DNA of 36,259 nucleotides from Pedococcus aerophilus (GTDB taxonomy: Bacteria > Actinomycetota > Actinomycetes > Actinomycetales > Dermatophilaceae). Below, piece by piece: positions 27,369 to 30,554 of the stretch. The DNA lies in contig NZ_BAAARN010000004.1 in the NCBI RefSeq assembly GCF_039532215.1, positions 1 to 36,259 on the forward strand, written 5' to 3'. A program made the position numbers and the translations under genes. The notes below the pieces were generated by a model. That model saw only the letters and a list, made by a program, of their open reading frames with translations. It was not told where the DNA came from and searched no databases. Each line of letters starts with the position of its first letter. The stretch's first letter is position 1.

Positions 27369-28721
27369 GTGAACCAGTTGCTGCGGCAGGTGCTCCCCGT
27401 TCTCGGACTGGATGAGGAGCATGCGGCCGGGCACCTCGACCTCCCGGCCGGAAACGCCCTCCCGTCGGCTCTCCCGGTCAGCACGCTCGCCTGTGGCTCG
27501 GTCGCTGCGGCTGGCCTCGCCGGACTCGCTCTGCGCGGAGCTGGTGTCGAAGGTGCGGCCGAGGGCGGGCGCGTCCACGTGGATCCTCGACAGGTCGCCG
27601 TCGCCTTCCGCAGCGACCAGGTGCTGCGCGTCGATGGAGCTGCGATCGACGGGTTCGCCCCGTTGTCAGGGTTCTTCGCGGCCAGCGACGGATGGGTGCG
27701 CACGCACGCCAACTACCCGCACCACCGCGCTCGGCTGCTGAGGGCGCTCGACCTGCCCGAGACCGCCGGACGGCAGGACGTTGCGGCGGCCGTCGCCGGG
27801 CGCACAGCGCAATCCGTGGAGGATGCCGTCGTCGCCGACCACGGGATCGCCGTCCGGGTGCGGTCGGTCGGGGAGTGGATGGCCTCGGAGCACGCCCGTG
27901 CGGTGTCGACGCACGAGGTCCTGGCCGTGACCCGCGACGGCGACGCCGGCGCCATACCGGTCCCGGATCGTCCGCGGGTCCTGGACCTGACGCGCGTGAT
28001 CGCCGGGCCGGTGGCCACTCGCACGCTGGCCTTCGTCGGGTGCGACGTGCTGCGCGTCGACAGCCCCCACCTGCCCGAGATCGAGCTCCAGCACCTCGAC
28101 ACCGGTGCGGGCAAGCGCTCGACGTTGATCGACCTGCACGAAACCCATGCGCGGCAACGGTTCCACGAGCTTCTCGACGCTGCCGACGTCCTGGTCACGG
28201 GATACCGCCCGGGCGCCCTCGAGGTGTTCGGTCTTCATTCCGACGAGCTGGCCCGCAGCCATCCGGGTCTTGTCGTCGCGTCGCTGTCGGCCTGGACGCC
28301 GTCAGGACCGTGGGGGGACCGTCGCGGGTTCGACAGCATCGTGCAGGCAGCCACCGGGATCGCGATGATCGAATCGGTCGACGGCCAGACCCCCGGGGCA
28401 CTTCCGGCCCAGGCCCTGGACCACGCGACGGGATACCTGGTCGCTGCGGGAGTCCTTGCGGCACTGAGGAACCGGACGACCGAGGGAGGCACCTGGAGCG
28501 TCTCCGCCCACCTCGCCCGCACCGCCCACTGGCTGCTCCAGTCCGACGCGTTGGACGGACCGGCAGAGGCCGTCACCGACGTGGAGCCGTGGACCCTCGC
28601 TCGGGCGACTTCTCACGGGACCGTCACCCAGTCGCGGCCGGCGTTCCAGATCGCCGGCGGGCCGAGGGAGTTCGCCGATGTCGGGCACCGTTGGGGGACC
28701 GACACCGCCGAGTGGCTCTGA
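27369..28721 (+). CDS. Family III CoA-transferase (CaiB/BaiF type) with rearranged domain order
   Basis: A 450-aa protein of the CoA-transferase III family. The usual N-terminal signature (RPRVLDLTRVIAGPVATRTLAFVGCDVLRVDSP) only begins at residue 201. It continues with GKRSTLIDL, ADVLVTGYRPGALEVFGL, and Asp351 in ALDHATGYLVAAGVLAAL as the likely catalytic aspartate. Residues 1-195 instead resemble the part that normally follows the catalytic core: GRVHVDPRQVAVAFRS, then FFAASDGWVRTHANYPHHRARLLRAL and GIAVRVRSVGEWMASEHA. The protein is therefore permuted, or a tandem duplication that lost its first end. The GTG at 27369 is positioned for leaderless initiation. No acyl-CoA pathway genes are adjacent, so substrates are unknown. 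Confidence 0.82.
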   Translation: MNQLLRQVLPVLGLDEEHAAGHLDLPAGNALPSALPVSTLACGSVAAAGLAGLALRGAGVEGAAEGGRVHVDPRQVAVAFRSDQVLRVDGAAIDGFAPLSGFFAASDGWVRTHANYPHHRARLLRALDLPETAGRQDVAAAVAGRTAQSVEDAVVADHGIAVRVRSVGEWMASEHARAVSTHEVLAVTRDGDAGAIPVPDRPRVLDLTRVIAGPVATRTLAFVGCDVLRVDSPHLPEIELQHLDTGAGKRSTLIDLHETHARQRFHELLDAADVLVTGYRPGALEVFGLHSDELARSHPGLVVASLSAWTPSGPWGDRRGFDSIVQAATGIAMIESVDGQTPGALPAQALDHATGYLVAAGVLAALRNRTTEGGTWSVSAHLARTAHWLLQSDALDGPAEAVTDVEPWTLARATSHGTVTQSRPAFQIAGGPREFADVGHRWGTDTAEWL

Positions 28722-28881
28722 ACGTGTGCCGCCCTCGAGGTATCCGACGCCGAGGTCGTCAGCGAACTTCAGGACGTCGGAGAGACTTGCTCGATCCGGC
28801 GGTTCCAGCTCACCTCGACGCCGAGGAGGACCACCACCCCGCCAGGGCGCCCGACACCGTGGCCTCAGGCAGACTGGCGTG

Positions 28882-29259
28882 GTGTCCCGTCCCCCCTTGC
28901 CGTCCAAGCCCTGCGCCCGGTGCGGTCGAACCATCACCTGGCGCAAGGTCTGGGCTCGCTACTGGGACTCGGTGCGCTGGTGCTCGGACAGCTGCCGCAA
29001 GCACGGCCTGAGCGACGTCGATCGAAAGCTCGAGGCGTCCCTGGGGTCGCTGCTGGACGGGCGGTCGGCCAGCTCGTCGGTGTGCCCGTCGGAGGCGGCC
29101 CGTGCTGTCGGTGCGGACGACTGGTCCGGCCTGATGGAGCCGGCACGGATGGCCGCCCGACGGCTGGTGGCAGCGGGGCGCGCCCAGATCACCCAGGGTG
29201 GACAGGTCGTCGACCCCAGCAAGTTCAAGGGCCCGCTCCGCGTGCGCCGACCGCGGTGA
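28882..29259 (+). CDS. DUF2256-DUF3253 fusion protein with C4 zinc motif
   Basis: A 125-aa protein with two small domains. Residues 5-40 are DUF2256, a four-cysteine zinc-finger-like motif (KPCARCGRTITWRKVWARYW...RWCSDSCRKHG). Residues 48-120 are DUF3253, a small winged-helix-like domain (VCPSEAARAVG, LMEPARMAARRLVAAGRAQITQGGQVVDPSKFKGPLRVR). The frame is open far upstream, but similarity starts at RPPLPSKPC, so a GTG at 28882 (or 28879) is the likely start; no Shine-Dalgarno sequence is evident. It overlaps the photolyase-like gene (GTGA at 29256-29259). From memory, DUF2256 genes often sit next to cryptochrome/photolyase genes. The 160 bases before it hold nothing I recognise. Confidence 0.83.
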   Translation: MSRPPLPSKPCARCGRTITWRKVWARYWDSVRWCSDSCRKHGLSDVDRKLEASLGSLLDGRSASSSVCPSEAARAVGADDWSGLMEPARMAARRLVAAGRAQITQGGQVVDPSKFKGPLRVRRPR

Positions 29260-30554
29260 GCGCCGGCACCGACCGAGCGCGGCCGGGCAGCCGGCTACCC
29301 ACCCCGTCCGTCGGCGAGGAGGTCGCCTGGGTGCAGCGGCACGTGGGCCACCTCGTGCTCGAACCGGAGGTGAGGGCCAGCCCCGGGTTCCGCGGTGGTC
29401 AGAGTGCTGCCGACGCCGCCCTCGCCGCCTTCGACGTGACCGGGTACGCGCGGGCCCGCAACGAGGTCCTGCCCCGACGCGCGCGAGGGGCGAGCAGGTT
29501 GAGCCCGTACGTCCGCCACGGCCTCATCGACCTCCCCACCCTGTGGGCGCACGTGGCCTCCGGGCCCGGGCGCGACCGGGACAAGTACCGCGACGAGCTG
29601 CTCTGGCAGGAGTACGCCCGACACCTGCACGCCCGACTCGGGGATGCCCTGCGCTCGCCGCTGCGCCACGAACCGCCCCGCCGCACCCCCGACGGGGAGT
29701 GGGGCTGGAACCGCGAGATGGCCTGTGTCGACCTGGCCGTCGGAGAGCTCGAGAGCGACGGCTGGCTGGTCAACCAGACCCGGATGTGGCTCGCCTCGCA
29801 GTGGTCCGTGCGGGCCGGCTTCGACTGGCGCGAGGGGGCCGAGCACTTCGAGCGACACCTGCTCGACGGGTCGGCGGCAGCCAACCTGTTGGGGTGGCAG
29901 TGGACCATCGGCACCGGCACCGGCAAGCCGTACGGCTTCAGCCGTTGGCAGGTGCGCAAGCGCGCGCCCGGCCTCTGCGAGGCCTGCCCGCTCAACGACC
30001 ACTGCCCCATCGACGGATGGCCGAACTCGACCAGCGGCCCCGCGGTGACGAACCAGGATCCTCTGCTTCGCGCAGACCCCCGCGCACACGTCACTGCCGG
30101 GCCGGCGTCGGTCGAGGCGCTCGACAGCGGTGCCACGCCCGAGGCGGTGTGGCTGACATGGGAGTCCCTCGGAGACGGCGACCCGGCCCTCGTGGCCCAC
30201 CCCGACCTTCCCGCGGTGCTCGTCCTCGACGAGAGGCTGCTCGGAGTCCGACGGCTCTCGGGCAAGCGTCTCGTCTTCGTCGCGGAGGCCCTCGCCGACC
30301 TCGCCACCCGCCGCGAAGTCGAGGTGCACCTCGGCGACCCGGCCACCGTCCTCGGCGGACGTCCCCTCGCCGCCACCGCGGCGCCGGTCCCCGGCTGGCG
30401 ACGCCTTGCCTCACGTCTCGAGATCGAGCGTCACCCATGGCCCTGGCTCGTGCGTCCGGGTTCCGGCCCGGTCACGAGCTTCACCGCGTGGCGTCGCTCG
30501 AGTGGCGCCCCCACCACGGGTGCGAACCGCGGACGGTCGCCACGGCGTCGCTGA
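29256..30554 (+). CDS. Cryptochrome/photolyase-like protein with FAD domain first and antenna-like domain last
   Basis: A 432-aa protein. Residues 45-255 match the FAD-binding domain that is C-terminal in photolyases: RLSPYVRHG (81-89), RDELLWQEYARHL, GWLVNQTRMWLASQW (169-183), FDWREGAEHF and LLDGSAAANLLGWQW (202-216). Asn210 and Trp214 align with E. coli Asn378 and Trp382. Residues 295-415 look like the N-terminal alpha/beta antenna domain: EAVWLTWESLGDGDPAL, AVLVLDERLLG, HLGDPATVL, and WPWLVRPGSGPVTSFTAWRR. The domain order is thus reversed. The FAD part has four cysteines (157, 241, 244, 250; MACVDLAV and CEACPLNDHC) arranged like an FeS photolyase cluster. One conserved acidic residue of the FAD motif is serine (206). 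GTG start overlaps the DUF2256-DUF3253 stop. Activity (DNA repair or signalling) is unknown. Confidence 0.8.
   Translation: MSAGTDRARPGSRLPTPSVGEEVAWVQRHVGHLVLEPEVRASPGFRGGQSAADAALAAFDVTGYARARNEVLPRRARGASRLSPYVRHGLIDLPTLWAHVASGPGRDRDKYRDELLWQEYARHLHARLGDALRSPLRHEPPRRTPDGEWGWNREMACVDLAVGELESDGWLVNQTRMWLASQWSVRAGFDWREGAEHFERHLLDGSAAANLLGWQWTIGTGTGKPYGFSRWQVRKRAPGLCEACPLNDHCPIDGWPNSTSGPAVTNQDPLLRADPRAHVTAGPASVEALDSGATPEAVWLTWESLGDGDPALVAHPDLPAVLVLDERLLGVRRLSGKRLVFVAEALADLATRREVEVHLGDPATVLGGRPLAATAAPVPGWRRLASRLEIERHPWPWLVRPGSGPVTSFTAWRRSSGAPTTGANRGRSPRRR

Follow-up and report, generated by a model that had tools for sequence, protein, structure and literature searches.

A gene in the window (the whole stretch of DNA that we have analyzed, 36,259 nucleotides long) raises the question of what kind of photolyase carries its FAD-binding domain first, and what the domain that follows it may be. 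A sequence-only reading of this DNA had described the protein as a photolyase or cryptochrome with its two domains in reversed order and four cysteines suited to an iron-sulfur (FeS) cluster, and had suggested that it may form a distinct branch. The domain order stands: Pfam, phmmer, hhalign and structural models place the FAD domain first and a photolyase-type alpha/beta domain last, with the limits shown in Table 1.

Table 1. Position in the window of the photolyase gene, its main features and the gene which precedes it
Feature	Position	Strand	Basis
DUF2256-DUF3253 gene, directly upstream, overlaps the photolyase start	28881..29259	+	PF10013 E 2.3e-14, PF11625 E 2.9e-24
Inverted-order photolyase gene, probably of FeS type	29256..30554	+	Open reading frame and translation; relatives; model pLDDT 93.7
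FAD-binding helical catalytic domain, residues ~45-255	29388..30020	+	PF03441, hhalign, Foldseek
Cys157, first proposed cluster ligand	29724..29726	+	81/81 in the family
FAD motif DGSAAANLLGWQW, residues 204-216, with Ser206 where Asp is usual	29865..29903	+	Ser206 in 81/81 of the family
Cys241, Cys244 and Cys250 (CxxC-x5-C), the other three proposed ligands	29976..30005	+	81/81 in the family
C-terminal photolyase alpha/beta (antenna-type) domain, residues ~295-416	30138..30503	+	hhalign, Deinococcus bridge, models, Foldseek

Catalytic domain, cysteines and flavin pocket

According to the translation of its open reading frame, the photolyase has 432 amino acids and starts with a GTG codon, which overlaps the stop codon of the preceding gene. 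About 44 residues precede the FAD domain. The only Pfam match above the cut-off is FAD_binding_7 (PF03441), at residues 155-224 with E 1.7e-13. A match below the cut-off, the endonuclease III FeS motif at residues 240-250 (E 0.12), spans C241 to C250. PF00875 does not match the whole protein, and PF04244 (the DPRP domain) does not match it at E up to 1. By phmmer, residues 48-223 correspond to the catalytic domain in class I photolyases of known structure. For class I and DASH proteins, NCBIfam and phmmer find that their catalytic half, which is normally the C-terminal one, aligns with the region from residues ~35-48 to 223. The comparison of the N-terminal part with the class I FAD domain by hhalign gives 99.7% (E 3.3e-25), and the first Foldseek match is 1iqr (E 6.7e-7).

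A pattern scan of a genome collection covering 84,980 species gives 247 confirmed relatives. The best 80 of these 247 have 54-63% identity and conserve the reversed order: all 80 matches reach query residue 410 or beyond. The gene is widespread in Actinobacteria. By their record titles 77 of the 80 belong to this phylum; the other three are L027, labelled Myxococcota, and L051 and L069, labelled as uncultured bacterium. Close copies are found in six of the 59 genomes of the window's taxonomic family, its own genome included (above 400 bits), and in ten of 149 genomes sampled across the phylum (above 500 bits). A stop flagged in three genomes of this taxonomic family led to the suspicion that some copies are split, like phr4/phr5. 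This has been rejected for loci L117-L121, since no stop lies inside the part aligned with the query in any of the five.

C157, C241, C244, C250 and S206 had been numbered correctly, and each is present in all 81 family proteins (the 80 relatives and the window copy). The sole exception among the 82 aligned rows is L082, the ordinary class I photolyase of the host genome. We have compared these positions in a joint alignment of 17 family rows with 10 class I, 12 actinobacterial PhrB-type, 3 Deinococcus and 3 alphaproteobacterial proteins. The family rows were taken from the 63 of alignment A1, which contains the window protein and 62 of the 80 relatives, less than 85% identical to each other. 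All four columns contain Cys in every PhrB-type protein (12/12) and in every Deinococcus relative (3/3), and no class I protein (0/10) has Cys in any of them. The three alphaproteobacterial relatives have no Cys in the C241, C244 and C250 columns, and one of them has Cys at 157. The alignment shows that the four invariant cysteines occupy the columns of the PhrB cluster ligands, which confirms at the sequence level that they are of the FeS type.

The first cysteine is located about 85 residues upstream of the other three. Their spacing, CxxC-x5-C, is kept throughout the family; it is shorter than the CxxC-x12-C of the 12 PhrB-type proteins, as the sequence-only reading had noticed, and is also the spacing published for Phr4 (PMC9426592). 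The Deinococcus proteins have CxxC-x6-C.

The replacement of Asp by Ser at position 206, also pointed out before, is confirmed in the sequences. This column contains Asp in all class I (10/10), Deinococcus (3/3) and alphaproteobacterial (3/3) proteins of the joint alignment, and the Asp is listed as FAD-contacting in PMC9426592. Other pocket positions are common to the family and class I: N173 and W191 are present in 17/17 family rows and 10/10 class I rows, and W214 is shared by the photolyase and the 10 class I rows. In the PhrB rows the corresponding residues are His, Pro and Met (12/12 in each case). Since the pocket residues are similar to class I and different from PhrB, CPD repair would be favoured over (6-4) repair.

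We consider it probable that the protein is an actinobacterial short photolyase-like protein (SPL) or reversed-order (Phr6-type) FeS photolyase, and that it is a CPD photolyase with a 4Fe-4S cluster. In such an enzyme, reduced FAD near N210 and the W214/W191 pair would absorb blue or near-UV light and would donate an electron to the CPD (cyclobutane pyrimidine dimer) that has entered the pocket by flipping; the dimer would then be split. The cluster, bound to C157, C241, C244 and C250, would anchor the end of this catalytic domain. The alpha/beta domain, in its new position, would pack on the catalytic domain and close the flavin site, and it may hold an antenna pigment or be without one. Against this explanation stand Ser206, which replaces an Asp kept in class I, the (6-4) function predicted in PMC9426592 for the same architecture, and the FAD-domain trees, which do not firmly place the family relative to PhrB.

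The authors of PMC9426592 predict a (6-4) photolyase function for Phr4, Phr5 and Phr6 from their FeS cysteines. The same function is an unlikely alternative for our protein. Its four cysteines do align with the PhrB-type proteins, a type for which (6-4) repair is the activity of the characterised enzymes according to the same paper, and the loss of Phr4/Phr5 is described there as lowering survival after UV-C and leaving it unchanged after UV-B, which also speaks for this function. On the other hand, the pocket follows class I at three positions where PhrB has other residues, and the host genome already carries a PhrB-type gene.

The DUF2256-DUF3253 gene

The gene which overlaps the start of the photolyase codes for a DUF2256-DUF3253 protein. 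Its listed open reading frame extends from 28678 to 29259 (+), and the GTG at 28881 is its likely start. In order to be counted, a locus must have at least 1 kb on both sides of the photolyase. There are 62 such loci: DUF2256, DUF3253 or both are found within 3 kb of the photolyase in 16 of them (within 400 bases in 13) and are absent from this distance in the other 46. In most of the loci which have it the gene is upstream of the photolyase, in a few it is downstream.

Both genes also tend to be found in the same genomes. Of the 149 genomes sampled, ten contain the photolyase and 16 contain DUF2256 above the cut-off; nine contain both (Fisher p 1.4e-9, uncorrected for relatedness). DUF2256 is also present in 10 of the 19 genomes with PF04244 (PhrB). 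The counts agree only partly with the idea that it is a marker of every FeS photolyase: it is found in 3 of the 11 genomes which have PF04244 and no family member, and 4 of the 16 DUF2256 genomes (G070, G081, G092 and G200) contain neither a family photolyase nor PF04244. The host genome has a second DUF2256 gene at C1:609276-609386.

In the collection of papers available to us, none was found that brings DUF2256 together with photolyases. We consider the DUF2256-DUF3253 protein as a candidate partner of the photolyase, and this recurrent neighbourhood supplies a concrete context for a domain of unknown function. Such a neighbour might also be the output partner of a cryptochrome-like light sensor without repair activity, in a host genome which has two other photolyase-family genes; this is quite improbable, as the family keeps the pocket residues of photolyases and the anatomy of the protein suggests no output domain.

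Other photolyase genes are present in these genomes. In the host genome they are a class I photolyase (C1:1483115-1484257) and a PhrB-type PF04244 photolyase (C5:387232-387807). A PhrB-type FeS photolyase open reading frame adjoins the inverted gene or lies within 1 kb of it in 3 of 80 loci with limited flanks (L015, L022 and L027), and the same situation is found on contig C25 of genome G167. This points to two FeS photolyases being carried jointly.

The C-terminal domain

The C-terminal part of the window photolyase has no domain match in Pfam or NCBIfam. In the family, PF00875 matches 8 of 37 C-terminal parts (best E 0.0069), and the window copy is not among these eight. These 37 rows form alignment A2, a manual selection to which the window contributes 468 bases and each of 36 relatives, chosen among the 62, its final 420 bases. 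A HMMER profile of the domain finds no significant photolyase match among PDB sequences; the best has E 0.51 and is ranked below antibody chains. Since this search is too weak to decide, we have used the comparison of profiles with profiles.

With hhalign this half of the protein also finds a photolyase domain: the 63-row alignment, cut to residues 280-420, matches the N-terminal domains of actinobacterial class I photolyases at 95.9% (E 5.7e-9), over 73 of 141 columns, which correspond to window residues ~293-367, about the first half of the domain. As controls, a reversed target and 20 shuffled ones do not exceed 1.3%, and the value for the class I FAD domain is 0.1%.

Plasmid proteins form a bridge between both kinds of domain. 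We have found 132 matching records in the plasmid collection, all below 60% identity, and have compared 8 proteins taken from the best 60 of these records. The top match is a Deinococcus protein, with 32% identity over 80% of the query. Three Deinococcus plasmid proteins (L140, L141 and L142), annotated only as FAD-binding domain-containing proteins, have the reversed order and the cluster cysteines. The C-terminal parts of these three match the actinobacterial C-terminal domain at 97.9-98.0% in the same type of profile comparison, and the class I N-terminal domain at 96.0-96.9%, over 108-109 of 158 columns. In the viral_contigs collection, a scan based on this family yielded 23 pattern matches, none of which is a relative.

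The family profile gives a further indication. In the 149 genomes there are 43 other places which match its FAD part, and in three of them the C-terminal positions (~271-363) match separately, with E 4.2e-7, 1.4e-4 and 6.9e-4. In each case this match is located upstream of the FAD match, so that the domain swap is directly visible in three photolyases.

Structural models agree with these comparisons. The AlphaFold model of the photolyase has a mean pLDDT of 93.7 and a pTM of 0.92, with strands and helices which alternate between residues 297 and 416; they also alternate when the C-terminal domain is modelled alone (pLDDT 86.7). When the latter model is compared with 350,542 chains by Foldseek, the first ten places are taken by entries for class II photolyases. 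Their probability is 0.90-0.99 and their TM-score, relative to the length of the query, is 0.41-0.52; the best E is 0.025 and none is below 0.001. These entries apparently correspond to a single Methanosarcina mazei protein, and the list does not give the aligned part. A Chlamydomonas cryptochrome comes 12th and mouse cryptochrome 1 comes 14th. Lower positions include chains of malate dehydrogenase, PIN and universal-stress proteins.

It is very improbable that this is an unrelated Rossmann-like domain, for example a universal-stress-protein-like one: such a domain would fit the lack of Pfam and significant HMMER matches, the partial hhalign coverage, the modest best Foldseek E value and the other folds lower in that list, and it is opposed by the hhalign E value with its clean controls, by the longer Deinococcus bridge, by the three photolyases matched upstream of their FAD domain and by the ten photolyase entries which head the Foldseek list. 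Profile comparisons and models show that the C-terminal domain is related to the antenna domain which other photolyases carry at their N-terminus: it appears to be relocated, not absent.

Known classes, relatives and trees

According to the sequence-only reading, known photolyases have their domains the other way round; this statement is no longer up to date. In PMC9426592 (2022), Phr4/Phr5 and Phr6 are described as starting with the FAD domain, ending with the photolyase domain and having four cysteines, and NewPHLs and SPLs are called inverted in domain topology in PMC13274461. Reversed-order FeS photolyases were already published in 2020-2022. The proposal of a distinct branch is correct as far as distinctness goes; the branch is not new, as Phr4/5/6 were in print in 2022. 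By their published description, Phr6 and the split Phr4/Phr5, known from Cyanobium and marine Synechococcus, are similar to our protein in domain order and cysteine positions: C169, C254, C257 and C263 in RS9916 Phr4 (PMC9426592) correspond to 157, 241, 244 and 250 here. These proteins are cyanobacterial, and a frameshift divides Phr4/Phr5 into two open reading frames; the window gene consists of one.

Xu et al. reportedly purified in 2021 the SPL of Rhodococcus fascians, with FAD, a FeS cluster and CPD repair activity. The description of SPLs agrees with our protein in the absence of an N-terminal alpha/beta domain, in a class I-like FAD domain and in the FeS cluster reported for them. The difference is that SPLs are described without any alpha/beta domain, while the window protein has a related domain at its C-terminus. 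In PMC9649867, SPLs are called CPD repair enzymes, are shown to bear a FeS cluster and are described without the alpha/beta domain. Synechococcus elongatus also carries an SPL gene (PMC9178010), and SPLs have been proposed as a possible origin of the photolyase/cryptochrome family (PMC9498864).

Novelty may lie in two observations: the antenna domain described as missing would be relocated rather than absent, and the DUF2256-DUF3253 gene recurs beside the photolyase. With somewhat less than even confidence, we propose that FeS SPLs are not primitively short, their alpha/beta domain having moved to the C-terminus, so that they descend from a two-domain ancestor or have one in common with other photolyases, and that the DUF2256-DUF3253 protein is their dedicated partner. 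If the domain has been relocated, SPLs would no longer be an example of a simpler, antenna-less state. This would bear on the idea of ancestral SPLs, whose rooting may be tested with structures and domain-level trees.

NewPHL/Phr7 (Emmerich et al. 2020) shares with our protein the inverted topology and the N-terminal catalytic domain. Phr7 is described in PMC9426592 as devoid of FeS cysteines and ending in a Z-domain, unlike the window protein, which has these cysteines. NewPHLs are also reported to repair lesions only in single-stranded DNA. We have taken the three alphaproteobacterial relatives, which resemble the description in print, as NewPHL/Phr7-like. Their C-terminal parts match the actinobacterial C-terminal domain at 0.2-20.6% singly and at 1.3% as a joint alignment, which does not show that all inverted photolyases have a relocated domain in common. 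Aligned together, the same three parts match the class I N-terminal domain at 68.6%.

The FeS-BCP/PhrB prokaryotic (6-4) photolyases share the four ligand columns with our protein and differ in their N-terminal DPRP domain, as well as in the cysteine spacing and pocket residues described above. Class I CPD photolyases have WQW, N173, W191 and N210 in common with it. They differ in their N-terminal antenna domain, in the absence of cluster cysteines and in the Asp which takes the place of Ser206.

The FAD-domain trees contain 14 of the 63 A1 rows, 15 of 29 PF00875-type open reading frames (obtained from 30 loci, with 32 genomes matching), 12 PhrB-type open reading frames (from 19 matching genomes) and the 8 plasmid proteins. 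When six rows are omitted, five divergent PF00875 proteins and a DASH protein, the actinobacterial, Deinococcus and alphaproteobacterial inverted proteins are found on one side of a branch. Its support is 100/99 if PhrB is also omitted and falls to 80/50 if PhrB is kept. Inclusion of the divergent rows groups the actinobacterial family with PhrB (80/61). A single clade of FeS proteins, which would include the family, Deinococcus and PhrB, is not rejected (p-AU 0.386). These trees do not firmly place the family relative to PhrB. The five divergent proteins (L107, L109, L110, L112 and L114), which are actinobacterial and match PF00875, form a very long branch (length 2.9) apart from the class I rows.
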